Assembly: GCF_025398255.1 (NCBI RefSeq)
Contig: NZ_JAODNW010000001.1
Coordinates: 372,001 to 436,000 of the forward strand
From: Chelativorans intermedius
GTDB lineage: Bacteria; Pseudomonadota; Alphaproteobacteria; Rhizobiales; Rhizobiaceae
Direction of reading: 5' to 3'
DNA length: 64,000 bases
Under the pieces are notes generated by a model. That model was given only the letters and a program-made list of their open reading frames with translations. It was not told where the DNA came from and did not search any database. The translations under genes and the position numbers were made by a program. Shown in pieces: positions 9,184-23,877 of the stretch (positions within the stretch are counted from its first letter, which is position 1; each line of letters starts with the position of its first letter).

Positions 9184-10341
9184 ATGCCCGATCTTGCGCG
9201 GACCCGGCAGATTCTGGCCGATCTGGTGGCCTTTCCCACGGTGTCGGCCGACAGCAATCTGCAGCTCATCGCCTATGCGGCCGAGATTCTCAGCGACCTG
9301 GGGGCGCGGCTGTCAATCCACCACGACGGGACGGGCACCAAGGCCAATCTCTTTGCCACATTGGGGCCGGAAGGCGATGGCGGCATCGTGCTCTCGGGCC
9401 ACACCGACGTGGTGCCCGTGGAGGGGCAGGAGTGGACGGGCGATCCGTTCACCCTGCGCGAGGCGGGCGATCGGCTCTACGGCCGCGGCACCTGTGACAT
9501 GAAGGGCTTCATCGCCTGTTGCCTGGCGATGGCGCCCTCCTTCGCCGAGGGCACGCTCAGGCGGCCTCTGCACTTCGCCTTCACCTATGACGAAGAGGTG
9601 GGCTGCTTCGGCGCCCGCGCCCTGATGGAGGAGATCGACCGGGCGGACATCCGCCCGGCAGCGGCCATCATTGGCGAGCCCACGATGATGCGCATCATCG
9701 AAGGGCACAAGGGCTGCTACGAATACACCACAGAGTTCCGCGGGCTGGAGGGACATGGCTCGGACCCGGAGCGTGGCGTCAACGCGGTGGAATATGCCGT
9801 GCGCTATGTCTCCCGCCTCATGGCGCTGGCGGAGGATCTGAAGGGCCGCGCACCGCCCGACAGCCGCTTCCGGCCGCCATGGACCACATTGCAGGTGGGG
9901 CTCATGCAGGGTGGCTCTGCGCGCAATGTCATTCCCGGCCATTGCATCGTGGAATGGGAGATGCGGCCCGTGCAGGAGGCCGATGCCGATTTCGTGAAAG
10001 AAGGCATCCAGACCTATATCGACACGGTGCTGCGCCCGGCGATGAAGGCAGTGTGCGCGGATGCCGACATCGTGACCCGTGTGGTGGGCGAGGTGGAGGG
10101 GCTGGAGCCCGCGGCCGAATCGGAGGCGCGGCGCATCGTCTGCGCGCTGACCGGCCTGACGGAGGCCGAGGTGGTGTCCTTCGGCACCGAGGCGGGGCTG
10201 TTTCAGCGCGCCGGCATCTCCGCGGTCATCTGCGGCCCCGGCTCCATCAAGCAGGCGCACAAGCCGGACGAGTTCGTCTCGCGGCAGCAGCTTGCCGCCT
10301 GCCTGGAGATGCTGGAGCGGCTGGCGCGAACGCTGAGGTGA
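9184..10341 (+). CDS. M20-family deacetylase (ArgE/DapE type), probable N-acetyl-diaminobutyrate deacetylase
   Basis: A 385-residue zinc amidohydrolase of the acetylornithine deacetylase group. Metal and catalytic motifs are in order: SGHTDVVPV (about residue 75), GRGTCDMKG (bridging aspartate), YDEEVGC (catalytic and metal glutamates), GEPT and a C-terminal histidine in AHKPDEF. It starts 9 bp after doeA, so it should act on the DoeA product N-acetyl-L-2,4-diaminobutyrate, a close homologue of acetylornithine. Known pathways usually use DoeB, of the unrelated succinylglutamate desuccinylase fold. None is visible here, so this enzyme may replace it. A plain acetylornithine deacetylase remains possible. 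Confidence 0.85.
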   Translation: MPDLARTRQILADLVAFPTVSADSNLQLIAYAAEILSDLGARLSIHHDGTGTKANLFATLGPEGDGGIVLSGHTDVVPVEGQEWTGDPFTLREAGDRLYGRGTCDMKGFIACCLAMAPSFAEGTLRRPLHFAFTYDEEVGCFGARALMEEIDRADIRPAAAIIGEPTMMRIIEGHKGCYEYTTEFRGLEGHGSDPERGVNAVEYAVRYVSRLMALAEDLKGRAPPDSRFRPPWTTLQVGLMQGGSARNVIPGHCIVEWEMRPVQEADADFVKEGIQTYIDTVLRPAMKAVCADADIVTRVVGEVEGLEPAAESEARRIVCALTGLTEAEVVSFGTEAGLFQRAGISAVICGPGSIKQAHKPDEFVSRQQLAACLEMLERLARTLR

Positions 10342-10348
10342 GCGGCCG

Positions 10349-11047
10349 ATGAACAAAGGCAGCGAGTCGCGTGCCCGCTTCGAGCGCATCTACCGCACGC
10401 TGCGCCAGCGCATCTGCCTGCTCGACTACCCGCCTGGCCGACGGCTGCGGGAGGAGGACCTGGCCGAGGAGTTCAAGACCAGCCGCACGCCCATCCGCCG
10501 CGTGCTGGCCCGGCTCGAAGACGAGGGCCTGCTGCGTTCCGTCCATGGCGTCGGCACCATCGTCACCGACATTCACATCGACGATCTGCAACAGGTCTAC
10601 CAGCTGCGCGTGGAGCTGGCCGAGCTCATCGGCAAGCTGGCGCCGGTGATGCCGGACCGGCGGACCATCGAAGAGTTCCGGGAGCTTGAGGCGCGCGGCA
10701 GGGCCCTTGCCAAGCGGCCGGACGCGCGCGAGTTCGCCCGCCTCAACATGGAATTCTTCCATCTTCTGATGACGCTGACGGCCAACGAGCCGCTGCGCGA
10801 GATTTCCGAAAGGCTTTATTACCAGACGACGCGCAACTGGCTGAAAACCGCCTCGCGGCTGGCCCAGTATCGCGAGATGCTGAGGAACGAGATCCGCTTC
10901 TTCCAGCGCGAGATGGCCGACACGCTGGCGGCCATCGAAACAGGCGATCTGCAGGTGGTTGGCCATGTCCGGCGCGCCCATGTGGCCATGAGCTTCGCGC
11001 GGCTTTACGCCGAGGCCCATCCCGTGGTCTGTAACGAGCAGAGCTGA
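10349..11047 (+). CDS. GntR-family (FCD-type) transcriptional regulator of the ectoine locus
   Basis: A 232-residue regulator with an N-terminal GntR winged helix-turn-helix ([50 protein letters not shown] split over residues about 13-60) and an all-helical FCD-like C-terminal effector domain. It is the last gene of the doeA operon, 7 bp after the deacetylase. Ectoine catabolic loci commonly carry the MocR-type regulator EnuR instead, and none is seen in this window. The two TTGT-N2-ACAA palindromes in the doeA/ehuB intergenic region are its likely targets (inference). Confidence 0.87.
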
Positions 11048-11074
11048 GAGGCCTGCCAGGCGGGCCGTGCCGTC

Positions 11075-11105
11075 TTGACCTTCCAGTTGCTGGAAAGCCT
11101 ATCTG
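11075..11105 (+). promoter_or_regulatory. CueR/MerR-type metal-responsive promoter of the copper ATPase
   Basis: A -35 element TTGACC (11075-11080) and a -10 element TATCTG (11100-11105) are separated by 19 bp, the over-long spacer typical of MerR-family promoters. The spacer holds a dyad TTCCAG-TTG-CTGGAA (11081-11095) with flanks matching the CueR pattern ACCTTCC...GGAAGGT at most positions. It lies 29 bp ahead of the copper ATPase. No cueR gene is seen in the window, so the regulator must be encoded elsewhere. Confidence 0.8.
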
Positions 11106-11133
11106 CACGCCGGAAGCGATTGCGGAGAGCCAG

Positions 11134-13602
11134 ATGCACAAAGCACACGATACCGTCCACAACGATCAGGAAACGGTGGTCCGCGACCCGGTCTGCGGCA
11201 TGACGGTCGATCCCGCGGTGGGCAAGCCGAGGCTGGAGCATGCCGGACACACCTACCATTTCTGCAGCACGTCGTGCCATGGTCGCTTTGCCGCCGACCC
11301 CGAAGCCTATCTGAAAGCCAGGGACCCGGTCTGCGGCATGGAGGTGGAGCGCGCCACGGCACGCCATTTCCATCGCCACGAGGGGCAGGCCCACTATTTC
11401 TGCTCGGCGGGCTGTGCGGAAAAGTTCGCCGCCGATCCCGAGCGCTATCTGGGGGAGCGGGCAAAGCCCGAACCGATGCCCAAGGGAACCAAATACACCT
11501 GTCCCATGCATCCCGAGATCGTCGAGGACAAGCCGGGAAGCTGTCCCCTGTGCGGCATGGCGCTGGAGCCGATGGGAGTGCCCACCGGCCAGGAGGGCCC
11601 CAACCCGGAGCTTGTGGACTTCACCCGGCGGCTGTGGGTGAGTGCGCTCATGGCCGCCCCGCTCGTCATCATCGCCATGGGCCCCATGCTGGGCCTGCCG
11701 GTGCGCCACTGGTTGGGCGAGAGGCTCTCGGTGTGGCTTGAGCTTCTTCTGGCAAGCCCCGTGGTGCTGTGGGCGGCCGCGCCCTTTTTCGAGCGCGGCT
11801 GGCAGTCGATCCGCAACCGCAGCCCCAACATGTGGACGCTGATCGCCATCGGCGTCGGCGCGGCCTATGGCTACAGCGTCGTGGCGACGCTCTTCCCGCA
11901 GGCTTTCCCCGCCTCGTTCCGCACGCACGGGGGCACCGTGCCGGTCTATTTCGAGGCGGCGGCGGTGATCGTCGCGCTCATCTTCGTCGGCCAGGTGCTG
12001 GAGCTGAAGGCGCGGGAGCGCACAGGCTCCGCCATTCGCGCGCTTCTCGACCTTTCGCCGAAGACGGCGCGGCGCATCGACGCCGATGGCAAGGAGAGCG
12101 ACGTTCCGCTGGAGGCCGTGAAGGTGGGCGATCTCCTGCGCGTGCGGCCCGGCGAATCGGTGCCTGTGGACGGCGTCGTGGAAGATGGCCGCTCGTCCGT
12201 CGATGAATCGATGATCTCAGGCGAGCCCGTGCCGGTGGAGAAGCAGCCGGGCGACCGGCTGACCGGTGGCACGCTCAACAAGAACGGCACGCTGGTCATG
12301 CGTGCCGAGCGGGTGGGCGATGAGACGATGCTGGCCAGGATCGTCGAGATGGTGGCGGCGGCCCAGCGCTCGCGCGCGCCCATTCAGGGAATGGCCGACC
12401 GCGTCTCGGCCTGGTTCGTGCCCGCCGTGGTGCTGGTGGCCGTCGTCGCCTTTGTCGTGTGGGCGCTCTTCGGCCCGTCGCCCAGCATGATCTTCGCCAT
12501 CGTCTCCGCGGTCTCCGTGCTCATCATTGCCTGCCCCTGTGCGCTGGGGCTCGCCACGCCGATGTCGATCATGACGGCGACCGGACGCGGGGCGCAGGGC
12601 GGCGTTCTTATCCGCGACGCCGAGGCGCTGGAGCGCTTTGCGCGGGTGGACACGCTGGTGGTGGACAAGACAGGCACGCTGACGGAGGGTCGCCCGAGGC
12701 TGACCGACGTCATCCCTGCCGAAGGAATGGAGCGGGGCGAGCTTCTGTCCCTGGCGGCGAGCCTTGAACGCGGGTCGGAACATCCGCTGGCCGAGGCGAT
12801 CGTGGATGGTGCGGAGGCCGAAGGCGCGAGGCTTGCGGAGGTGAAGGACTTCGAGGCAGCCACCGGCAAGGGCGTGACGGGCACGGTGTCCGGCCGGCGC
12901 GTGGCGCTCGGCAATGCGGCGATGATGCGCGATCTGCAGGTCGATCCCGGTCCGCTGGCGGCCCGCGCCGAGCGCCTGCAGGAGGAGGGCAAGACGGCGA
13001 TGTTCGTCGCCCTCGACGGTCGGCCTGCCGGTCTCATTGCCGTTGCCGATCCCATCAAGGAGACGACGGCGGAGGCCATCCGCGCGCTGCACGATCTCGG
13101 CCTGACCATCATCATGGCCACCGGCGACAATGCGCGCACGGCGCGCGCGGTGGCCGGGAAGCTCGGCATCGACGAGGTGCGCGCGGACGTGCTGCCGGAG
13201 GACAAGAAAAGGCTGATCGACGAGCTGCATGCCAAGGGCGCCAGGGTGGCGATGGCGGGCGACGGGGTGAACGATGCTCCAGCGCTGGCCGCCGCGGATG
13301 TGGGAATCGCCATGGGAACGGGCGCCGATGTGGCGATGGAAAGCGCCGGCATCACGCTGGTGAAGGGCGATCTGCGGGGCATCGTGCGCGCCCGCAGGCT
13401 GGCGCGGGCAACCATCCGCAACATCAAGCAGAACCTTTTCTTCGCCTTCGTCTACAACGCGGCAGGCGTGCCGATTGCCGCCGGTATCCTCTATCCGGTG
13501 TTTGGCGTTCTCCTGTCTCCCATGATCGCCGCTGCGGCGATGAGCCTGTCCTCGGTGTCGGTGATCGGCAACGCGCTGAGGCTGAGAAAGCTGCGCCTGT
13601 AG
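11134..13602 (+). CDS. copA: Copper-exporting P1B-type ATPase with two N-terminal YHS domains
   Basis: An 822-residue inner-membrane metal pump. Two YHS domains (DPVCGM at about residues 18 and 65, each with a paired CSxxC/CSAGC cluster) and a YTCPMHPE metal-binding segment (about 122) precede the transporter core. No CxxC heavy-metal-associated domain is visible. The core has membrane metal site [10 protein letters not shown] (about 467), phosphorylation site DKTGTLTEG (about 511), HPLAEA and [10 protein letters not shown] (about 709). CPC and the CueR-type promoter point to Cu(I)/Ag(I) export. It stands alone between the ectoine and nitrate loci. Confidence 0.9.
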
Positions 13603-13643
13603 CGGCGCGGCCGGGAAAAAAGCGGGCGGAGCGATTTTTGCAT

Positions 13644-13660
13644 TGCACAAGCTTTGTGCA
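13644..13660. promoter_or_regulatory. 17-bp NtrC-like palindrome before nasT
   Basis: The 17 bp read TGCACAA-GCT-TTGTGCA, a perfect inverted repeat. The outer arms and length match the NtrC pattern TGCAC-N7-GTGCA. It ends 17 bases before the nasT start codon, which is close for an activator site and might act by repression or autoregulation. Nitrogen control of a nitrate regulator would make sense, but binding is inferred. Confidence 0.5.
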
Positions 13661-13676
13661 TGCGCAAAATAAAGGC

Positions 13677-14267
13677 ATGTTGCCCCGCTCGCTTTCCGTT
13701 CTGGTCATTGACGAAAACACCGTGCGCGCCGCCATCATCGAGGCGGGGCTGCGCGAGGCCGGGCATGAGCGTGTCACCGTGGTGCACGATGTGAACGGCA
13801 TCGCGCAGCGCATCGCGGCGATTGAGCCGGACGTCATCGTCATCGACCTGGAAAATCCCAATCGCGACATGCTTGAGAACATGTTCAGCCTGTCGCGGGC
13901 GGTGAAGCGGCCCATTGCCATGTTCGTGGATCAATCCGACCAGAGCGCCATCGAAGCGGCGGTGGATGCCGGCGTCTCCGCCTATGTGGTGGACGGGCTC
14001 AGGCAGGAGCGCGTCAAGCCCATCGTGGACATGGCGATCAGCCGTTTCAACGCCTATTCGCGCATGGCGCGCGAACTGGAGGAGGCGAAGAGCGCGCTCG
14101 AAAACCGCAAGCTGGTGGACCGCGCCAAGGGCATTCTCATGCGTTCCAAGGGGATCTCGGAAGAGGAGGCCTACGCGCTTTTGAGGCGCACGGCGATGAA
14201 CCAGAACCGCAAGATATCGGAAATCGCCCAAAGCCTCATCCTGGCTTCCGGGCTGCTCGACGAATGA
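13677..14267 (+). CDS. nasT: NasT, ANTAR-domain antiterminator of nitrate assimilation
   Basis: A 196-residue two-domain protein: a receiver-like domain (SLSVLVIDENTVRAA..., residues about 5-120) and a C-terminal ANTAR RNA-binding domain (ENRKLVDRAKGILMRSKGISEEEAY, then ISEIAQSLI). It binds paired hairpins in nitrate-operon leader RNA and prevents termination. I chose the ATG at 13677, since the upstream extension from 13638 runs across the palindrome and lacks conserved sequence. It is coupled to nasS, and a fitting leader target lies before nrtA at 15681-15798. Receiver phosphorylation is usually not the signal in this family; NasS is. Confidence 0.92.
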   Translation: MLPRSLSVLVIDENTVRAAIIEAGLREAGHERVTVVHDVNGIAQRIAAIEPDVIVIDLENPNRDMLENMFSLSRAVKRPIAMFVDQSDQSAIEAAVDAGVSAYVVDGLRQERVKPIVDMAISRFNAYSRMARELEEAKSALENRKLVDRAKGILMRSKGISEEEAYALLRRTAMNQNRKISEIAQSLILASGLLDE

Positions 14268-14275
14268 GGCGTACC

Positions 14276-15508
14276 ATGGCCGATCATCACATCACTGCCG
14301 GATTTCTGCCGCTCATGGACAGCGCCATACTGGTGATTGCGCGTGAGAAGGGGTTTGCCGCCCAGGAAGGGATTGCCCTTTCCCTGGTGCGCGAAACATC
14401 CTGGGCCAGCATCCGTGACCGCATCGCGGTCGGCCACTTCGACGTGGCGCACATGCTTGCGCCCATGCCGATCGCCGCCAATCTGGGGCTCACACCCATG
14501 CGCCTGGAGCTGGTGGCGCCTTTGGCGCTTGGCCTTGGCGGCAACGCCGTCAGCGTCTCCAACGCCCTGTGGCGCGCCATGGAGGAGGCAGGGGCGACCG
14601 GACCGGAGGCGCCGGCTGCCGTCGGTGCGGCGCTGCGCAGGGTGATCGGCAAACGCAGGTCGGAAGGCGCGGAGAGGCTGCGCTTCGGGGTGGTGCATCC
14701 CCACTCCGGGCACAATTTCGAGCTCTGCTACTGGCTGGCTGCCTGCGGTATCCAGCCGGGGCGCGACGTGGAAATCGCCATCGTGCCGCCGCCGCTGACG
14801 GCTGATGCCATCGCAGCGGGCCGTATCGACGGTTTCTGCGTCGGTGAGCCATGGAACAGTGTGGCCGTGGCGGCAGGCCATGCGCGCATCGCCACGGTGA
14901 AGGCCGCCATATGGAAATCGAGCCCGGAAAAGGTGCTGGGCGTGCGTGCCGAATGGGCGCAGGCGCATGAGGACACGCTTGCCCGCCTGCTGCGCGCGCT
15001 CTATCGCGCCGCCGAATGGTGCGGAGAGGCCGAAAACCGCGGCGAGCTGGCGGCGATCCTGTCGGGCGCAGCCTATCTCGACCTGCCTGCACGGCATGTG
15101 CTCGGCGCCCTCGAGGGGCGGCTGGAGACGGGCGGCAGCATCCACCGGGTCGACGATTTCTTCCTTCCCGTGCAGAAGGCGGCGACCTTTCCCTGGCAGA
15201 GCCACGCGCTGTGGTTCTATTCGCAGATGGTGCGCTGGCGCCAGGTGGCGCACAGTGCGGAGAATGCCGAGCGTGCCCGACGCACCTTCCGCCCGGACAT
15301 CTATCGCGCGGCCCTCGGCCCGCTGGGGGTGACGCTGCCCTCGGCGAACATGAAGGTGGAAGGCGCGTTGACCGGCCCCACTCCCGTTGGGTCGGCTTCC
15401 GGGCGGCTCATCCTGGGTCCCGATGGCTTCTTCGACGGCGCGGTGTTCGACCCCGCCGAACTGGACGCCTATATCGCCGCGCAGTCGCGCTCCCATAGTG
15501 TTGCCTGA
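14276..15508 (+). CDS. nasS: NasS, cytoplasmic nitrate/nitrite sensor antagonising NasT
   Basis: A 410-residue homologue of the nitrate-binding protein NrtA but without a signal peptide or lipobox, beginning MADHHITAGFLPLMDSAILVIAREKG. Shared NrtA-like blocks include HMLAPMPIAANLG, HPHSGHNFELCYWLA and GFCVGEPWN. In the NasS-NasT system NasS sequesters NasT until nitrate or nitrite binds. The ATG at 14276 has GAGG at good spacing. An ATG at 14264 overlapping the nasT stop (ATGA) would add four residues. The coupled nasT-nasS order and the downstream leader support the call. Confidence 0.9.
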   Translation: MADHHITAGFLPLMDSAILVIAREKGFAAQEGIALSLVRETSWASIRDRIAVGHFDVAHMLAPMPIAANLGLTPMRLELVAPLALGLGGNAVSVSNALWRAMEEAGATGPEAPAAVGAALRRVIGKRRSEGAERLRFGVVHPHSGHNFELCYWLAACGIQPGRDVEIAIVPPPLTADAIAAGRIDGFCVGEPWNSVAVAAGHARIATVKAAIWKSSPEKVLGVRAEWAQAHEDTLARLLRALYRAAEWCGEAENRGELAAILSGAAYLDLPARHVLGALEGRLETGGSIHRVDDFFLPVQKAATFPWQSHALWFYSQMVRWRQVAHSAENAERARRTFRPDIYRAALGPLGVTLPSANMKVEGALTGPTPVGSASGRLILGPDGFFDGAVFDPAELDAYIAAQSRSHSVA

Positions 15509-15617
15509 AATATAGGCATTCTCTACATCTGCCTAAAATTTGTTCGCTGCGATGCAACATTAGACAGCATCCGCCCTCCGCATTTGCAGCCTGGCGCGTG
15601 GCGTATTTCCATAAGTA

Positions 15618-15639
15618 CTTGAAATTAAAAGATTTCAAG
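15618..15639. promoter_or_regulatory. Perfect inverted repeat upstream of the nrtA sigma-54 promoter
   Basis: CTTGAAAT (15618-15625), a 6-base spacer TAAAAG and ATTTCAAG (15632-15639) form a perfect 8-bp-arm inverted repeat. Its centre is about 26 bp before the -24 element, roughly at -52. It is AT-rich in a GC-rich region, so an activator or IHF-type bending site is possible. The factor is unknown. Confidence 0.4.
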
Positions 15640-15653
15640 AATCGCCCTCGGTT

Positions 15654-15670
15654 TGGCACGCTTCCTGCAT
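15654..15670 (+). promoter_or_regulatory. Sigma-54 (RpoN) promoter of the nrtA operon
   Basis: TGGCACG at 15654-15660 and CTGCAT around 15665-15670 place the invariant GG (15655-15656) and GC (15667-15668) exactly 10 bases apart, as in the -24/-12 consensus. Transcription should start near 15680, just at the 5' edge of the leader hairpins. This fits nitrogen control of nitrate assimilation through NtrC and RpoN. Upstream NtrC sites are not clear-cut: 15509-15617 holds only imperfect TGCA-type repeats and a TGCCT/AGGCA repeat set at 15502-15534. Confidence 0.82.
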
Positions 15671-15680
15671 GGAAGATGTC

Positions 15681-15725
15681 GGGTCCAGAGGGGACACCAA
15701 CAGAAAGCGTCCAAGGAAGGGCGCT
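15681..15725 (+). ncRNA. ANTAR-type RNA leader: two-hairpin NasT target upstream of nrtA
   Basis: Hairpin 1 has arms GGGTCC (15681-15686) and GGACACC (15692-15698, one bulged A) with loop AGAGG. Hairpin 2 has arms AGCGTCC (15706-15712) and GGGCGCT (15719-15725) around hexaloop AAGGAA (15713-15718). The hexaloop has A at position 1 and G at position 4, the signature recognised by ANTAR proteins; hairpin 1 has the same A1/G4 in a five-base loop. A terminator follows at 15731. With NasT and NasS encoded just upstream, this is a textbook arrangement for nitrate-responsive antitermination. Confidence 0.8.
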
Positions 15726-15730
15726 CGGGC

Positions 15731-15798
15731 AAAGCTGCCGATCGGGAATCGCCGCCGTGACCGCGGGCGCGTGATTTCTGACCGGCAGCTTTTCTTTT
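15731..15798 (+). terminator. Leader terminator controlled by NasT
   Basis: AAAGCTGCCG (15731-15740) pairs perfectly with CGGCAGCTTT (15783-15792), with further partial pairing inside, and is followed by a T-rich tract to 15798. It lies between the ANTAR hairpins and the nrtA start at 15852, so by default it should stop transcription before the operon. It starts five bases after hairpin 2, which allows mutually dependent folding. Confidence 0.8.
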
Positions 15799-15851
15799 GC
15801 GTGAACAGCCAACCAGGGGACCGACTTCCCGACGGCCCCACGGAGACAGCG

Positions 15852-17258
15852 ATGAAGAAAACCATGACCGCCCATGCTTGCCAAAACCGGGTTCTCGGCG
15901 CCGTGACAGCGCTCGCGCTGGTTTCGGCCGCAACGATGGCGGAAGCCGAGATGCTCGACGTGGAGAAGGACGAGCTCACCTTCGGCTTCATCAAGCTCAC
16001 CGATATGGCGCCGCTCGCCGTCGCCAAGGAGCTCCATTACTTCGAGGATGAGGGGCTCTATGTCACCTTGGAGCCGCAGGCCAATTGGAAGGTGCTGCTC
16101 GACCGCGTGATTACCGGCGAGCTCGACGGCGCGCACATGCTTGCCGGCCAGCCGCTGGCGGCGACGATCGGCTTCGGCACCAAGGCGCACATCGTCACCC
16201 CCTTTTCCATGGACCTGAACGGCAACGGCATCACCGTCTCCAACGAAGTGTGGGAGATGATGAAGGAGCATGTGCCGATGGGCGAAGACGGCAAGCCGGT
16301 CCACCCCATCAAGGCCGATGCCCTGAAGCCCGTGGTCGATCAGTTCAAGGCGGAAGGCAAGCCCTTCAACATGGGCATGGTCTTTCCCGTCTCCACCCAC
16401 AATTACGAGCTGCGCTACTGGCTCGCCTCGGGCGGCATCCACCCCGGTTTCTATTCGAAGACCGATGTCTCCGGCCAGATCAAGGCCGATGCCTTCCTCT
16501 CCGTGACGCCGCCGCCGCAGATGCCCGCCACGCTGGAGGCTGGAACCATCCACGGCTATTGCGTTGGCGAGCCGTGGAACCAGCAGGCCGTCTTCAAGGG
16601 TATCGGCGTGCCGGTCATCACCGATTACGAGATCTGGAAGAACAATCCCGAGAAGGTGTTCGGGCTGACGGCGGAGTTCGTGGAGAAGTATCCCAACACA
16701 ACGCTTGCCATCACAAAGGCGTTGATCCGCGCCGCCAAGTGGCTGGACGAGAACGACAATGCCAACCGCATGGAAGCGGTGGAGATCCTCGCGCGGTCCG
16801 AATATGTGGGGGCGGATGCCGAGGTCATCGCCAACTCGATGACCGGCACCTTCGAATATGAGAAGGGAGACAAGCGGGCAGTGCCCGACTTCAACGTCTT
16901 CTTCCGCTACTTCGCCACCTATCCCTACTACTCGGACGCCATCTGGTACCTCACCCAGATGCGCCGCTGGGGGCAGATCGCAGAGCACAAGCCGGACGAT
17001 TGGTATCACGAAGTGGCCAGAACCGTTTACCGGCCCGACATCTATCTGGAAGCCGCCAGGATGCTGGTGGAGGAGGGATTGGTCGACGAGGCCGATTTCC
17101 CCTGGGACTCCGACGGCTATCGCGCGCCGACACCGGCCGCCGACATCATCGACGGCATCTCCTACGACGGCCGCAAGCCCAACGCCTACATCGATTCGCT
17201 GCCCATCGGCCTGAAGGCCAATCAGACGGTGGAAGGCACCGAGGTCGTCGGCGGCTGA
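15852..17258 (+). CDS. nrtA: NrtA, nitrate/nitrite ABC importer substrate-binding protein
   Basis: A 468-residue periplasmic nitrate-binding protein with a Sec-type signal peptide ([11 protein letters not shown], hydrophobic stretch, cleavage near AEAEM at about residue 33). Blocks shared with NrtA include [55 protein letters not shown] and [14 protein letters not shown] sits 6 bases before the ATG. It passes nitrate to NrtB and the double ATPase encoded next. Expression should depend on sigma-54 initiation and NasT antitermination in the leader. Confidence 0.93.
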
Positions 17259-17328
17259 AAGGCCGTATGAAAGGGGCGGGGGCCGAGGGGCGCCCGCCGA
17301 ACGAGAAGCACACCCAAGGAACCCGACT

Positions 17329-18411
17329 ATGACGAATGCGAGCGATGCCATTGCAACCGCCGCCGGGCGGGAGGCGCGCAGGGAGCGCCTCTTCACCCGC
17401 ATCAACAAGGCTGCCGGCTGGCTGGACGCGCTGGGACTGTCCTGGTTGACCCCGCTCCTGAAGATCGCCGCCGGCGACAGCCCGCGCGAACAGTTCTCCG
17501 AGCTGAAGCGGGTGCTCCTCGTGCCGCTCGTCGGGATCGGTCTCTTCCTCGCCGCCTGGGGTATTCTCGCTCCGCAGGTGCAGACCTCGCTGGGCGCCAT
17601 TCCCGGCCCGGTGCAGGTGTGGCAGCAGGCGGTCAACCTGTGGGAGGACCACAGGGCCGAGCGGCAGAAGGCTTTGGAGTTCTACGAGCGCCAGGAGGCG
17701 CGCAACGCCAAGCTGATTGCGGACGGGCGGGAAGACCGGGTGAAGTGGCGCGACTATACGGGCCGGCCGACCTATCTCGACCAGATTGCCACCTCGCTGC
17801 TGACGGTGGGGCTCGGCTTCGCCTTCGCCACGCTGGTGGCCGTGCCGCTCGGCATTGCCTGCGGCCTGTCGCGCACGGTCAACGGCGCGGTCAACCCGCT
17901 GATCCAGATCTTCAAGCCGGTTTCGCCGCTGGCGTGGCTGCCCATCGTCACCATGGTGGTCTCGGCACTCTATGTGGATACGGTGGATTGGTTGCCGAAG
18001 TCGCTTCTGATCTCGGCGATCACGGTCACGCTCTGCTCGCTGTGGCCGACGCTCATCAACACCGCGCTCGGCGTCGCCTCCGTCGACAAGGATCTGATGA
18101 ATGTCGGCCGCGTGTTGCAGCTTCCAACGGCCAGGATCATCACGAAGCTGGTGCTGCCCTCCGCCCTGCCGTTGATCTTCACGGGGCTTCGCCTGTCTCT
18201 CGGCGTCGGCTGGATGGTGCTGATCGCGGCGGAAATGCTGGCGCAGAACCCCGGCCTCGGCAAGTTCGTGTGGGACGAGTTCCAGAACGGCTCTTCGCAG
18301 TCGCTTGCCAAGATCATGGTGGCGGTGCTGACCATCGGCATCATCGGCTTCCTGCTTGACCGGCTGATGTATGCGCTGCAGCGCGCCTTCACCTTCTCGG
18401 CAAACCGCTAG
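17329..18411 (+). CDS. nrtB: NrtB, nitrate/nitrite ABC importer permease
   Basis: A 360-residue inner-membrane permease of the NitT/TauT family. A charged N-terminal region with one early helix (LLVPLVGIGLFLAAWGI) and a hydrophilic stretch (HRAERQKALEFYERQEARNAKL, in part coiled) precede a bundle of five to six helices. The EAA-like coupling segment is around VGRVLQLPTARIITKLVLPSALP. It follows nrtA by 70 bp and precedes nrtC by 9 bp. The long hydrophilic insert is typical of proteobacterial nitrate permeases. Confidence 0.92.
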   Translation: MTNASDAIATAAGREARRERLFTRINKAAGWLDALGLSWLTPLLKIAAGDSPREQFSELKRVLLVPLVGIGLFLAAWGILAPQVQTSLGAIPGPVQVWQQAVNLWEDHRAERQKALEFYERQEARNAKLIADGREDRVKWRDYTGRPTYLDQIATSLLTVGLGFAFATLVAVPLGIACGLSRTVNGAVNPLIQIFKPVSPLAWLPIVTMVVSALYVDTVDWLPKSLLISAITVTLCSLWPTLINTALGVASVDKDLMNVGRVLQLPTARIITKLVLPSALPLIFTGLRLSLGVGWMVLIAAEMLAQNPGLGKFVWDEFQNGSSQSLAKIMVAVLTIGIIGFLLDRLMYALQRAFTFSANR

Positions 18412-18420
18412 GAGGCGAGG

Positions 18421-20172
18421 ATGGCATTTCTGGAAATCTCCGGGCTTTCCAAGCACTATGGCGAGGGTGCAAGGCGCAATCCCGTGCTTACCGATATCAA
18501 CCTGAAGGTGGCGGAGGGCGAGTTCATCGCCATTGTGGGCTTCTCGGGCTCGGGCAAGACGACGCTGATTTCGGCGCTTGCCGGGCTCGTGAAGCCCGAT
18601 GCCGGGGGCGTCATCTTCAAGGGCAGGGAAGTGGACGGGCCGGGGCCCGAGCGTGGCGTTGTCTTCCAGTCCTATTCGCTGATGCCCTGGCTGTCGGTGG
18701 AAGGCAATGTGGCGCTCGCCGTCGATCAGGTCTTCAAGGCAAGCCCCCGGGCGGAGCGCCGCGCCATCGTCGAGAAGTACATCGAGATGGTGGGCCTCTC
18801 CCATGCGCGCGACCGCAGGCCGGCCGAGCTGTCCGGCGGCATGCGCCAGCGGGTGGCCGTGGCGCGGGCGTTGGCCATGCAGCCGCAGGTGCTTCTCATG
18901 GACGAGCCGCTGTCGGCGCTCGACGCGCTGACGCGCGCCAAGCTGCAGGACGAGTTCGCAGCGATCTGCGAACAGGAGAAGAAGACCATCATCCTGGTGA
19001 CCAACGATGTGGACGAGGCCATCCTGCTGGCCGACCGCATCGTCCCGCTGACGCCGGGGCCGGACGCCCGTTTCGGACCGGAGTTCAGGGTCGATCTGCC
19101 GCGCCCGCGCGACAGGGCGGCCATGAACTCGGATCCCACCTTCATCCGCCTGCGCGCCGAGGTGACGCAGTATCTCATGGAGATCGGTGCTGCGCGCGGG
19201 GCCGATGTGGAGCGCGAGATCGTGCTGCCCAATGTCGTGCCGATCACGCAGGCGGGGCGGCCGCCCGGTGTCCGTGAGGCGGCGGCCAGACATCCGCTGA
19301 AGGAGCGCTATCTGGAGTTCAGCCAGCTCAAGAAGGTCTATCCCACGCCCAAGGGGCCGCTGACAGTGGTCGACGGCTTCGACCTGAAGGTCGCCAGGGG
19401 CGAGTTCATCACGCTGATCGGCCATTCGGGCTGTGGCAAGTCGACGGTGCTCACGATGGCCGCTGGGCTGAATCCCATTTCCGAGGGCGGCATCATTCTC
19501 GACGGAACCGAGGTTTCGGGAGCCGGGCCGGAGCGGGCCGTCGTCTTCCAGTCGCCCTCGCTGATGCCCTGGCTGACGGCCTATCAGAATGTCGAGCTCG
19601 GCGTCGACAGGGTCTATCCGGGTGCCAGCAGGGCGGAAAAGCGGGACGTCATCGAATACTACCTTGCGCGCGTCGGTCTTGCCGATGCCATGCACCGGCT
19701 GGCCTCCGACCTCTCCAACGGCATGAAGCAGCGCGTCGGCATCGCGCGCGCCTTTGCGCTCTCTCCCAAGCTGCTCCTGCTCGACGAGCCCTTCGGAATG
19801 CTCGACAGCCTTACCCGCTGGGAGCTGCAGGACGTGCTCATGGAGGTGTGGGCGCGCACGCAGGTTACCGCCATCTGCGTCACCCACGATGTGGACGAAG
19901 CCATCCTGCTGGCCGACCGGGTGGTGATGATGTCGAACGGCCCGAACGCCAAGATCGGCAACATCATGGAGGTGGATCTGCCGCGCCCGCGCTCGCGCGC
20001 CGCGCTTCTCGCACACCCCGACTACTACGCCTATCGCGAGGAGCTTCTGGAGTTCCTGGAGGCTTACGAGGGCGGGGCGAACCCCGGCGAAGAGCAACTT
20101 CGATCGATCAGTGAAAGGCGGGCGGCACGCATCGCCCGCCAGAAGGAAACGCGCCTTGCTGCAGCGGAGTGA
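18421..20172 (+). CDS. nrtC: NrtC-type fused double ATPase of the nitrate ABC importer
   Basis: A 583-residue protein with two complete ABC domains in tandem (about 1-250 and 293-540). NBD1 has Walker A GFSGSGKTT, signature LSGGM (137-141), Walker B VLLMDEP, but VTND in place of the switch-histidine motif: residue 195 is Asn. NBD2 has GHSGCGKST, signature LSNGM (431-435), LLLLDEP and intact VTHD (His489). One composite site is therefore canonical and the other degenerate. It powers NrtAB. Unlike cyanobacterial NrtC, no NrtA-like C-terminal domain is present. Confidence 0.9.
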   Translation: MAFLEISGLSKHYGEGARRNPVLTDINLKVAEGEFIAIVGFSGSGKTTLISALAGLVKPDAGGVIFKGREVDGPGPERGVVFQSYSLMPWLSVEGNVALAVDQVFKASPRAERRAIVEKYIEMVGLSHARDRRPAELSGGMRQRVAVARALAMQPQVLLMDEPLSALDALTRAKLQDEFAAICEQEKKTIILVTNDVDEAILLADRIVPLTPGPDARFGPEFRVDLPRPRDRAAMNSDPTFIRLRAEVTQYLMEIGAARGADVEREIVLPNVVPITQAGRPPGVREAAARHPLKERYLEFSQLKKVYPTPKGPLTVVDGFDLKVARGEFITLIGHSGCGKSTVLTMAAGLNPISEGGIILDGTEVSGAGPERAVVFQSPSLMPWLTAYQNVELGVDRVYPGASRAEKRDVIEYYLARVGLADAMHRLASDLSNGMKQRVGIARAFALSPKLLLLDEPFGMLDSLTRWELQDVLMEVWARTQVTAICVTHDVDEAILLADRVVMMSNGPNAKIGNIMEVDLPRPRSRAALLAHPDYYAYREELLEFLEAYEGGANPGEEQLRSISERRAARIARQKETRLAAAE

Positions 20173-20176
20173 ACCC

Positions 20177-22624
20177 ATGAAGAGAAAACTCGTCGTCATC
20201 GGCGCCGGCATGGCCTCCGGGCGCATGCTCGAACATCTGTTCGAGGCCGAAGAACAGGCATTCGACGTGACCCTTTTCGGCGCAGAGCCGCGCGGCAACT
20301 ACAACCGCATCATGCTGTCGCCGGTGCTGGCTGGAGAAAAGACCTTCGAGGAGATCGTCACCCATGATGCGCACTGGTATGCCGCCCATGACGTGACCTG
20401 CCGCTTCGGCGAGACGGTCACCAGGATCGACCGCCAGTCGAAGGTCGTCTTCTCCAAGGGCGGGGAAACCCCATACGACAAGCTGGTGATCGCCACGGGG
20501 TCCGCTCCCTTCATCATTCCCGTGGCGGGCAGGGACCTGCCCGGCGTGATGGCATTCCGCGACCTCGACGATGTCAATGCCATGGTGGCGGCAGCCGAGA
20601 GGCCCGGCGCAAGAGCCGTCGTCATCGGCGGCGGCCTTCTGGGGCTCGAAGCGGCGGCAGCCCTGCGCGCGCGCGGCATGGAGGTGGTGGTGCTACACCT
20701 GATGGGCCACCTGATGGAGCGCCAGCTCGACCCCGCCGCAGGCTATCTCCTGCAGAAGGAACTCGAGGGCCGCGGGATCAAGATCCACACAAAGGCGCAG
20801 ACCAAGGCGATCCTCGGCGAGGATCGTGCAGAGGCCGTGCTTCTGGAGGATGGCACGGTCTATCCCGCAGACCTGGTGGTGATGGCTGTCGGCATTCGCC
20901 CTGAGACCCGTATCGCGGTGGATGCGGGGCTCGATGTCGAGCGTGGCATCGTCGTCAACGACCAGATGGTCAGCTCGGATCCCGACATCCTGGCCATCGG
21001 AGAGTGCGTGGAGCACGAGCGCATCTGCTACGGCCTTGTCGCCCCGCTTTACGACATGGCCAGGGTGGCCGCCAGGACGCTGCGCGGCATGCCGGCCGCC
21101 TTCCGTCCCGTCGAGACGGCAACGCAGCTCAAAGTAACCGGCGTAAACCTCTATTCTGCCGGCGATTTTGCCGATGGCGAGGATCGCGAGGAGATCGTTT
21201 TGCGCGATGCCTCCGCCGGCATCTACAAGCGGCTTGTGCTCAAGGACGACCGCATCCTCGGCGCCGTGCTTTATGGCGATACCGCCGATGGCGCCTGGTT
21301 CTTCGACCTGCTCAAGAAGGGCACGGACGTTTCGCAGATGCGCGAGACGCTCATCTTCGGCCAGGCCTATCAGGGAGGGGGTGAGGCGGACCCTATGGCG
21401 GCCGTTGCAGCCTTGCCGGATGATGCGGAGATCTGCGGCTGCAACGGCGTGTGCAAGGGAAAGATCGTCTCCACGATCCGGGAGAAGGGGCTGACGGCGC
21501 TCGACGATGTGCGCGCCCACACCAAGGCTTCTTCATCCTGCGGCACGTGCACGGGGCTCGTCGAGCAGCTGATGAAGCTGACACTGGGCGATGCCTATAA
21601 TCCGACCACCGTTCAGCCCATGTGCGGCTGCACCGATCTCGGCCACGACGATGTGCGTCGCCTCATCAGGGCGAAGAAGCTCAAGACCATTCCCGCCGTC
21701 ATGCAGGAACTGGAATGGAAGACCTCCTGCGGCTGCGCCAAATGCCGGCCGGCGCTCAACTACTACCTTGTCTGCGACTGGCCGGACGAATATGCCGACG
21801 ACTACCAGTCGCGTTTCATCAATGAGCGCGTGCATGCAAACATCCAGAAGGACGGCACCTATTCCGTGGTGCCGCGCATGTGGGGCGGCGTCACCTCGGC
21901 GAGGGAGCTGCGTGCCATCGCCGACGTGGTGGACAAGTTCAACATTCCGACCGTGAAAGTCACCGGCGGCCAGCGCATCGACATGCTGGGCATCAGGAAG
22001 GAGGACCTGCCTGCCGTGTGGGCCGAGCTGGGCAAGGCCGGTTTCGTCTCCGGCCACGCCTATGCGAAGGGCCTGCGCACGGTGAAGACCTGCGTGGGCT
22101 CGGACTGGTGCCGTTTCGGCACGCAGGATTCCACCGGACTGGGCATCCGCATCGAGAAGTTCATGTGGGGCTCGTGGACGCCGGCCAAGGTGAAGATGGC
22201 GGTCTCGGGCTGCCCCAGAAACTGCGCGGAGGCCACCTGCAAGGATGTGGGCGTGATCTGCGTGGACTCCGGCTTTGAGATCCACTTCGCCGGCGCGGCC
22301 GGCCTCGACATCAAGGGCACCGAGAAGCTTGGCCTGGTGACGAGCGAGGACGAGGCGCTGGAGGTGATCGTGGCGCTTGTCCAGATGTATCGCGAGCAGG
22401 CGCGCTATCTGGAGCGCATCTACAAGTGGGCCAAGCGCGTCGGCTATGACGAAATCCGCCGTCAGGTGCTCGCCGACAAGGCACGGCGCAAGGAATATTT
22501 CGATCGCTTCGTCTTCTCCCAGAAGTTCGCCCAGGTCGATCCGTGGTCCGAGCGTGTCTCGGGGCGGGACAAGCACGAGTTCAAGCCGATGGCGGCAATC
22601 GGCTTTCCCCAGGCAGCGGAGTGA
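20177..22624 (+). CDS. nirB: NirB, assimilatory nitrite reductase large subunit (NADH, FAD, Fe-S, siroheme)
   Basis: An 815-residue enzyme reducing nitrite to ammonium. Residues 1-400 hold FAD and NAD(P)H folds (VVIGAGMASGRML; VVIGGGLLGLEAAAAL). Cysteine clusters CGCNGVCKG...CGTC (about 419-456) and CGC...CGCAKC (about 481-520) are BFD-like Fe-S regions. The sirohaem/4Fe-4S ligands are TCVGSDWC (about 637-643) and SGCPRNC...TC (about 678-690). The ATG at 20177 is 4 bp after the nrtC stop. NirD is encoded next. No siroheme synthase is in this window. Confidence 0.93.
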   Translation: MKRKLVVIGAGMASGRMLEHLFEAEEQAFDVTLFGAEPRGNYNRIMLSPVLAGEKTFEEIVTHDAHWYAAHDVTCRFGETVTRIDRQSKVVFSKGGETPYDKLVIATGSAPFIIPVAGRDLPGVMAFRDLDDVNAMVAAAERPGARAVVIGGGLLGLEAAAALRARGMEVVVLHLMGHLMERQLDPAAGYLLQKELEGRGIKIHTKAQTKAILGEDRAEAVLLEDGTVYPADLVVMAVGIRPETRIAVDAGLDVERGIVVNDQMVSSDPDILAIGECVEHERICYGLVAPLYDMARVAARTLRGMPAAFRPVETATQLKVTGVNLYSAGDFADGEDREEIVLRDASAGIYKRLVLKDDRILGAVLYGDTADGAWFFDLLKKGTDVSQMRETLIFGQAYQGGGEADPMAAVAALPDDAEICGCNGVCKGKIVSTIREKGLTALDDVRAHTKASSSCGTCTGLVEQLMKLTLGDAYNPTTVQPMCGCTDLGHDDVRRLIRAKKLKTIPAVMQELEWKTSCGCAKCRPALNYYLVCDWPDEYADDYQSRFINERVHANIQKDGTYSVVPRMWGGVTSARELRAIADVVDKFNIPTVKVTGGQRIDMLGIRKEDLPAVWAELGKAGFVSGHAYAKGLRTVKTCVGSDWCRFGTQDSTGLGIRIEKFMWGSWTPAKVKMAVSGCPRNCAEATCKDVGVICVDSGFEIHFAGAAGLDIKGTEKLGLVTSEDEALEVIVALVQMYREQARYLERIYKWAKRVGYDEIRRQVLADKARRKEYFDRFVFSQKFAQVDPWSERVSGRDKHEFKPMAAIGFPQAAE

Positions 22625-22629
22625 ATGCG

Positions 22630-22965
22630 ATGAACGATTGGGTGGAAATCGGCCGGCTCGACGACATTCCGCGCCGCGGGGCGCGCTGTGTTGAGACGCC
22701 CCTCGGCCGGGTCGCGGTTTTCCGCACGGCAAGCGACGAGGTCTATGCCATCGAAGACCGCTGTCCGCACAGGGGCGGGCCTCTCAGCCAGGGCATCGTG
22801 CACGGGGCGGAAGTGACCTGCCCGTTGCACAACTGGGTCTTTTCGCTGGAGACCGGCCTTGCGCAGGGGGCCGACGAGGGCGTCGTGCGCACCTTCGCGC
22901 TCAAGCGCGAGGGGGAGCGGATCTTCATGGATGCAACCACGGTGCTGGCAATGGCGGCGGAGTGA
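22630..22965 (+). CDS. nirD: NirD, nitrite reductase small subunit (Rieske-type)
   Basis: A 111-residue Rieske-fold protein with cluster ligands CPHRGGPLSQG and CPLHNWVFSLETG, both CxH/CxxH pairs intact. It accompanies NirB as the small subunit. The ATG at 22630 (MNDWVEIG) is 6 bp after the nirB stop. A GTG at 22621 overlapping that stop would add three residues. Confidence 0.92.
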   Translation: MNDWVEIGRLDDIPRRGARCVETPLGRVAVFRTASDEVYAIEDRCPHRGGPLSQGIVHGAEVTCPLHNWVFSLETGLAQGADEGVVRTFALKREGERIFMDATTVLAMAAE

Positions 22966-23016
22966 GCGCTCCCGCCACCCTCCCGGGCACCTTTCCAGCC
23001 GAATGAGGAAGCAGTC

Positions 23017-23868
23017 ATGTCTTACGTTCAGCCGACGGACTTTGTCACCAAGATGATCGACTCGGGTGAGGCGAAGGTCTTCATGTCCACGCGAGACACG
23101 TTGATCCGCGCCTATATGGCGGGTGCCATCCTGGCGCTGGCGGCGGCCTTCGCTGTCACCATTTCGGTGCAGACGGGCGAGCCGCTCGCCGGGGCCATTC
23201 TCTTTCCCGTGGGTTTCTGCCTGCTCTACCTGATGGGCTTCGATCTTCTTACCGGCGTCTTCACCCTCGTGCCACTGGCGCTCATCGACAAGCGCCCGGG
23301 CGTGACGTTCGGGGGTGTCATGCGCAACTGGGGCCTTGTCTTCATCGGCAATTTCGCCGGCGCGCTCACCGTGGCGGTGATGATGGCCATCATCTTCACC
23401 TTTGGCTTCTCGACGGAGCCGAACGCCGTCGGCCAGAAGATTGGCACCATAGGGGAGGGGCGCACCGTGGGGTACGCCGCCCATGGCGCGGCAGGCATGC
23501 TCACGCTCTTCATTCGCGGGGTGCTGTGCAACTGGATGGTCTCGACCGGTGTCGTTGCCGCGATGATGTCGAATTCCGTCTCGGGCAAGGTCATCGGCAT
23601 GTGGATGCCCATCATGCTGTTTTTCTATATGGGCTTCGAGCATTCCATCGTGAATATGTTCCTGTTCCCCTCGGGGTTGATGCTCGGCGGCGATTTCTCG
23701 GTGACGGACTATCTACTGTGGAACGAGATCCCGACGGTGGTCGGCAATCTGGTGGGCGGGCTCACCTTTGTCGGCCTCACCCTTTACGCCACGCACCATC
23801 GCACCGGGCAGAGGCACGAGCCGCGAGCCGGCAAGATGGGCGAACCCGTGCGCGTTCCGGCGGAGTAG
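23017..23868 (+). CDS. nirC: Formate/nitrite transporter (NirC/FocA family)
   Basis: A 283-residue channel of the pentameric FNT family with six hydrophobic helices. Family features include the ARAYMAGAILALAAAF-type first helix, GFCLLYLMG, the RNWGLVFIGNFAGA segment (one of the pore loops) and GVLCNWMVSTGV. Placed between nirD and nasA, it most likely moves nitrite across the inner membrane, either importing it or relieving build-up. Formate transport cannot be excluded by sequence alone. Confidence 0.88.
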   Translation: MSYVQPTDFVTKMIDSGEAKVFMSTRDTLIRAYMAGAILALAAAFAVTISVQTGEPLAGAILFPVGFCLLYLMGFDLLTGVFTLVPLALIDKRPGVTFGGVMRNWGLVFIGNFAGALTVAVMMAIIFTFGFSTEPNAVGQKIGTIGEGRTVGYAAHGAAGMLTLFIRGVLCNWMVSTGVVAAMMSNSVSGKVIGMWMPIMLFFYMGFEHSIVNMFLFPSGLMLGGDFSVTDYLLWNEIPTVVGNLVGGLTFVGLTLYATHHRTGQRHEPRAGKMGEPVRVPAE

Positions 23869-23877
23869 GGCTGCGCC

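Follow-up and report, generated by a model that had tools for sequence, protein, structure and literature searches.

Control of nitrate assimilation at two levels, by nitrogen status at the promoter and by nitrate in the leader RNA, is not new in kind. For Klebsiella, the combination of the Ntr system with an antiterminator has already been published: expression of Klebsiella oxytoca nasF is Ntr-controlled and is coupled to nitrate-controlled antitermination (PMC5424462), with one protein, NasR, serving as both nitrate sensor and RNA binder. In Paracoccus denitrificans, a hairpin-containing leader lies between nasTS and the operon nasABGHC. NasT of that species binds the leader RNA when nitrate is present (PMC3795266), hairpin HI is needed, mutation of HII left activity relatively unaffected, and an NtrC site upstream of nasT has been demonstrated by mutation (PMC5424462). 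Bradyrhizobium diazoefficiens NasT acts on the 5′ leaders of nosR and other genes, with respiratory genes among its targets (PMC6759348). The leaders read by ANTAR proteins such as EutV (eut), NasR (nasF) and AmiR (amiE) carry two hexaloop hairpins, each with A at loop position 1 and G at position 4, the second located at the 5′ base of the terminator; in the eut leaders of E. faecalis the linker between them is 5–12 nt, and shortening it to 3 nt drastically reduced induction (PMC3369931).

This study focused on a leader in Chelativorans intermedius, within a window of 64,000 nucleotides (contig NZ_JAODNW010000001.1, positions 372,001 to 436,000) of the 4.18-Mb genome. It is read here, with considerable confidence, as a nitrate-operated antitermination leader under a nitrogen-controlled promoter, and this two-layer reading best explains the gene content, the conservation of the elements, the NtrC-like box upstream and the co-occurrence with NasT. 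As in Paracoccus, nasT and nasS come first, then a leader with hairpins, and then the nitrate genes, although the operon is of a different composition (nrtABC-nirBD-nasA). From nasS onwards the order is leader, nrtA-like, nrtB-like, a double-ATPase nrtC/nrtD-like gene, nirB, nirD, a formate/nitrite transporter gene and a nitrate-reductase-like molybdoprotein gene (Table 1). The original prediction had nasT and nasS immediately upstream of the leader, and the Pfam domains of their products agree. A gene for a receiver-ANTAR protein thus adjoins one for an NrtA-like sensor, so that sensor and RNA binder are separate proteins here, in contrast to NasR. NasT is the sole ANTAR protein found in the genome and shares 95% identity with its Chelativorans alearense counterpart. 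Its best PDB relatives are 1s8n (putative antiterminator), 6wsh (response regulator) and 4akk (nitrate regulatory protein, NasR), with 1qo0 (AmiR) lower in the list; those of NasS are NrtA (2g29) and NrtC/CmpC chains. Among the downstream proteins, NirB and NirD score above curated cut-offs, the reductase falls below the cut-off for every family listed, the permease scores below the ntrB cut-off, and TIGR01184 (ntrCD) matches the double-ATPase protein in two stretches. The latter (18421–20172) is a single protein in which no further domain was found; cyanobacterial NrtC, by contrast, has a sensor-like part.

Table 1. Features of the nasTS–nrtA region and the genes downstream (positions in the window)
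Feature	Position	Strand	Evidence or remark
Two abutting TGC-N11-GCA boxes before nasT, NtrC-like; the first a perfect inverted repeat, TGCACAAGCTTTGTGCA	13644–13677	.	
nasT, receiver-like and ANTAR domains	13677–14267	+	Pfam ANTAR 3.9e-22, Response_reg 7.7e-08
nasS, nitrate-sensor-like, of the NrtA/NMT1_2 kind	14264–15508	+	Pfam NMT1_2 5.4e-68
NtrC-like box, TGCAACATTAGACAGCA	15553–15569	.	Centre ~119 bp before the predicted start
Sigma-54 promoter TGGCAC-N5-CTGCA, TGGCACGCTTCCTGCA	15654–15669	+	11 of 12 consensus positions; kept in relatives
Hairpin A, 5′-terminal stem-loop, pentaloop AGAGG, one bulged stem base (hairpin 1 of the original prediction)	15681–15698	+	
Hairpin B, first ANTAR hairpin, loop AAGGAA (15713–15718; A15713, G15716)	15706–15725	+	
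Hairpin C, second ANTAR hairpin GGC-AAAGCU-GCC (loop 15731–15736; A15731, G15734)	15728–15739	+	
Intrinsic terminator (predicted): outer arms 15731–15740/15783–15792, long paired interior, U-tract	15731–15798	+	
nrtA-like, nitrate-binding protein; first gene of the leader-controlled operon (predicted)	15852–17258	+	Pfam NMT1_2 1.3e-95
nrtB-like permease and double-ATPase nrtC/nrtD-like protein	17329–20172	+	Profile matches
nirB, nirD, formate/nitrite transporter, nitrate-reductase-like molybdoprotein	20171–26547	+	Profile matches

The 121-nt leader RNA (15680–15800) has a predicted fold of −61.9 kcal/mol (z −5.0, with 0 of 200 shuffles as stable), made up of hairpin A, hairpin B and one long terminator hairpin. 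The hairpin with loop AAGGAA that had been proposed as the second of an ANTAR pair is recovered in this fold as hairpin B. In a transcript that ends at 15775, as one still under synthesis would, the terminator's 5′ arm forms a small hairpin instead, and opening the top A-U pair of the latter leaves the loop AAAGCU, with A first and G fourth, on a GGC/GCC stem; this is hairpin C. Judged from the sequence and its predicted folds, the ANTAR pair is B with C, and not the two hairpins (A and B) of the original prediction. The two are tandem hexaloop hairpins whose loops begin with A and have G fourth, as in the eut, nasF and amiE leaders, and the cognate ANTAR protein, NasT, is encoded beside them. 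Because C shares sequence with the terminator arm 15731–15740, ANTAR folding and termination would be mutually exclusive; and because it lies at the 5′ base of the terminator, C fits the published ANTAR arrangement, which the pair A and B does not. Compared with the described dual-hairpin leaders, the linker is shorter (2–3 nt against 5–12 nt, the EutV range, which was not taken as defining) and there is an additional hairpin, A, at the 5′ end. The terminator had been described as a 10-bp stem with a U-tract: the hairpin and the U-tract (TTTTCTTTT, 15790–15798) hold, but the 10 bp are only the outer part, since most of the stretch between these arms is also paired, giving a hairpin of ~62 nt. 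A match to the ANTAR RNA model had been expected at 15681–15725. A search of 10000–22000 against Rfam 15 found nothing at E ≤ 1, and for 15640–15860 the only matches were to unrelated families, far below gathering scores. Since Rfam returned no match for the leader, a model of B and C (R1) was built, which matches at 15704–15742 with 49.4 bits.

Relatives came from two collections; further stretches were drawn from 60 genomes, with close to one genome for each genus. Element B was absent from eight of 112 rows (L004, L016, L031, L041, L062, L079, L082 and L104, the last being too short). In the 102 rows found with a pattern that fixed most of the stem of B together with that of C, placed no constraint on the loops and accepted U-G or C-G alone as the third B pair, loop B began with A and had G as its fourth base without exception, although these rows include near-copies and are not independent, some genomes occurring twice among L003–L111 (e.g., L003 and L038). 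Loop C was present in 99 of them, with A at position 1 in 98 and G at position 4 in 99; of the other three, L003 and L020 end too early and L056 has a changed stem. Spacing is similarly kept, the 6-bp core of B lying 3–8 nt from GGC in the 99 rows (4 nt in 75) and 26 or 27 nt from the predicted start in 70 of 101. For 40 diverse leaders RNAalifold predicted B and C and nothing else. The rows of this alignment, several of which recur in the search sets of R1, were picked by a search requiring two hexaloop hairpins (25 of 65 candidates were skipped), so that complete pairing follows from the selection, which did not dictate the kinds of pair. Compensatory changes occurred in four of nine pairs, shuffles giving 1.7 cells changed on both sides where the alignment has 15. 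Counting from its loop, B has U-G as the third pair in 36 of the 40. A U-tract followed C in 39 of 40, L170 being the exception; the rule applied, six T in eight, missed L161 and misplaced L152, both of which do have a T-run. Given the stability of the fold relative to shuffles and the recurrence of the elements at similar spacing in relatives, they are beyond chance.

Across genomes the leader keeps company with NasT. Matches to R1 were found in 61 of 199 genomes of the family, up to 37 of the 61 having supplied R1 rows and so matching by construction. All 61 have NasT, none of the 102 genomes lacking NasT has the leader, and 36 of the 97 with NasT gave no match. In the samples of the order and the class, matches fell to 35 of 249 and 6 of 289; the samples have some genomes in common, C. 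intermedius among them. Within the C. intermedius genome the next-best match reaches 22 bits (E 0.39) against the 49.4 bits of the window, so this sequence search points to one NasT with one clear target leader, where B. diazoefficiens NasT has several. The instance had been called unusually compact, a view that does not survive comparison: directly after nasTS, 29 of 60 genomes have the same layout of a sigma-54 element followed by B and C, eight have B and C without the element, 16 have another type of leader and seven have neither, and the predicted start lies 26 nt before B in the window and 21–37 nt before it in the majority of relatives whose promoter gave a single plain match. By sequence, the layout is the usual one in its family. 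Two of the seven genomes with neither have an intact leader further on. At L114/L214 and L122/L215, no leader directly follows nasS; an MFS transporter gene ~2.5 kb from nasT is preceded by an intact sigma-54 element and leader. Ten genes behind leaders were assigned by Pfam: two NMT1_2 (nrtA-like), five MFS, one molybdopterin reductase, one formate/nitrite transporter and one NirB-like redox protein. Five of the 61 genomes have two leaders; the gene after the second is that of an MFS transporter in two of them, nrtA-like in another two and a molybdopterin reductase gene in the fifth. At L211 (genome G081) two leaders lie ~6 kb apart, both without a sigma-54 element at the threshold; one precedes an nrtA-like gene, the other a gene for a molybdopterin reductase with fused flavodoxin and NAD-binding parts.

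A promoter element of the −24/−12 type had also been called, and it is present, with GG and GC separated by 10 bases and near consensus, conserved in place and, by the usual sigma-54 spacing of 12 bases from the −12 C, with a predicted +1 at about 15680. In the whole genome the pattern gives nine matches against 10 for a reversed control; taken alone it is therefore no evidence in this genome, and support comes from its conservation in place. The genes rpoN and ntrC are both present, the latter with a match of 702 bits. NtrC boxes follow the rule TGC-N11-GCA. Such a box stands upstream of the promoter in the window, a second occurs further upstream at the end of nasS, and at 27 of 43 loci at least one lies in the 180 bp preceding the sigma-54 element, against 1.4 expected from shuffles; the genome has both an enhancer-like box and a gene for NtrC. 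The pair of boxes before nasT reaches its start codon and could serve NtrC as activator or repressor, and NtrC may then control both the leader RNA and its antiterminator. The arrangement is not general among relatives as judged from their sequences, such a box occurring upstream of nasT in 16 of 61 against 4.5 expected, with a mean palindrome score of 7.9 against 7.8 in shuffles. Paracoccus has its tested NtrC site at that position, and in the available part of that account no sigma-54 element is described before nasA, unlike in the window. Since eight of the 37 B–C leaders in the 60-genome sample have no sigma-54 element at the threshold, and the pattern is not above chance, the promoter layer and the antitermination layer are separable.

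The following mechanism can be proposed, in which the protein actions are carried over from the NasST and EutV literature and the support at this locus consists of sequence, predicted folds, conservation and co-occurrence. Nitrogen shortage would activate NtrC, which would act from the box ~119 bp upstream on sigma-54 polymerase at the promoter, and transcription would start near 15680. Without nitrate, NasS would hold NasT, the RNA would fold into the 15731–15792 hairpin followed by the U-tract, and transcription would stop before nrtA. With nitrate, NasT would be freed, bind loops B and C and keep C closed; with its 5′ arm thus taken up by C, the terminator could not form, and polymerase would read on into nrtABC-nirBD-nasA. 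Since C has only three core pairs, NasT would have to catch it before the 3′ arm of the terminator, 44 nt further on, is made. Against the reading stand the short B–C linker, the mild effect of the HII mutation in Paracoccus, the B–C leaders with no sigma-54 element at the threshold and the equal count of the sigma-54 pattern in its control, the NasT genomes without an R1 match, and the missing U-tract of L170. Translation through the leader was considered and set aside: an open frame continuous with nrtA (15669–17258) spans the whole leader, probably by chance, and the ATG that opens it coincides with the end of the promoter element and precedes the predicted transcription start.

Hairpin A begins, as had been proposed, at 15681, and the position is shared: a stem of at least four pairs begins at predicted +1 to +4 in all 30 B–C leaders with a sigma-54 element (the promoter being chosen by hand where several matched, at L123, L134 and L136), compared with 43% of shuffles, 4 of 30 untranscribed upstream windows and 6 of 30 downstream windows (mean z −2.2). 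Its sequence varies freely, the loop being AGAGG, UUCG, GAAA, CUCG or one of many others (the survey of loops dropped leaders such as L119 and L123, whose A loop also fits the B pattern; the 30-leader count includes them), and it is therefore the structure at the 5′ end that is kept. RppH and RNase E depend on a 5′ end that is single-stranded, and structure at the 5′ end makes mRNA more stable (PMC3997798); the preferred guess is that hairpin A is perhaps a 5′ cap protecting the end of the RNA. Seven of the 30 loops, including that of the window, have A first and G fourth, and in some clades the hairpin may be an extra contact for NasT. A site of three hairpins, with NasT contacting A as well as B and C in this clade, would suit the retention of the AGAGG loop in several genera (L113, L124, L126, L127 and the Chelativorans loci) and the oligomeric state described for released NasT (PMC3795266); with a pentaloop in place of a hexaloop in the window, and 23 of 30 A loops without the two bases, it is unlikely. 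More doubtful still, to the point of being improbable, is the pairing originally proposed, in which NasT would read A and B and the terminator would be a separate element downstream. The A–B gap of 7 nt does fall inside the EutV linker range, and the same seven loops could be cited for it, but the freely varying A loops contrast with the nearly invariant loops of B and C, which is why A was rejected as the ANTAR partner of B; moreover, a pair without contact to the terminator would not, by binding alone, exclude termination. That the terminator simply acts as a NasT-independent attenuator, with B and C incidental, is scarcely credible, for although the terminator stretch is far more stable than B (−42.5 against −11.5 kcal/mol), the loop conservation, the covariation and the co-occurrence with NasT all oppose it.

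A general rule that sigma-54 transcripts start with a hairpin was also considered and is not shown by the glnB-glnA promoters of relatives, where a stem began at +1 to +4 in 19 of 27 loci against 58% of shuffles and 14 of 27 untranscribed upstream windows (mean z −1.5; three of 30 loci were dropped as the start codon or promoter was not found). The trend at these PII/glnA promoters is similar, and not significant by position. In the C. intermedius genome itself, at C15:125484 (L256/L260), the promoter of a PII gene followed by a glnA-like gene, assigned by eye, has a sigma-54 element and, at +2, a perfect 9-bp hairpin with a T-run.

The other type of leader, in 16 of the 60 genomes (L140–L142, L144–L146, L148, L149, L151, L153, L155, L157, L158, L167, L169 and L171), uses a second order of parts. 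Its first ANTAR hairpin (GGUC-AACGGC-GACC type) comes close after the predicted start, a variable, hairpin-forming stretch (mean z −1.7 against mononucleotide shuffles) lies between the ANTAR hairpins, and the second of these (GAC-ACCGAC-GUC type) again overlaps the terminator, so that the loops are 41–54 nt apart, compared with 17–23 nt in the B–C type. A sigma-54 match was found in 13 of the 16, and the first stem lay at +1 to +4 in nine of these 13 (shuffles 60%). Lower NasS identity suggests that this type is perhaps Rhizobium-like. Leader type tracks the NasT tree closely, if not perfectly, in these sequences, with eight changes for three labels against 21 in shuffles; L164, counted as neither type, resembles the second type by eye. 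A search of the open-access literature by title or abstract start, with subscription papers mostly uncovered, found no paper on this arrangement. It could be speculated, as a tentative reading that we hold to be possible but not probable, that the leader is a three-part device, in which a 5′ stem-loop selected without regard to sequence (as a cap against decay, or a clade-specific third contact for NasT) is joined to the ANTAR pair and to a long, slow terminator giving NasT time, the same parts being used in two orders.

With the bases predicted to be read by NasT redrawn, A15731 and G15734 join A15713 and G15716 as the obvious mutants, instead of loop A. In this family, a sigma-54 start that leads into a NasT leader is common and by no means peculiar to one genome. 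Of most interest are the 5′-terminal hairpin and the existence of two arrangements of the parts, which would show what an ANTAR leader needs beyond its two recognition loops.
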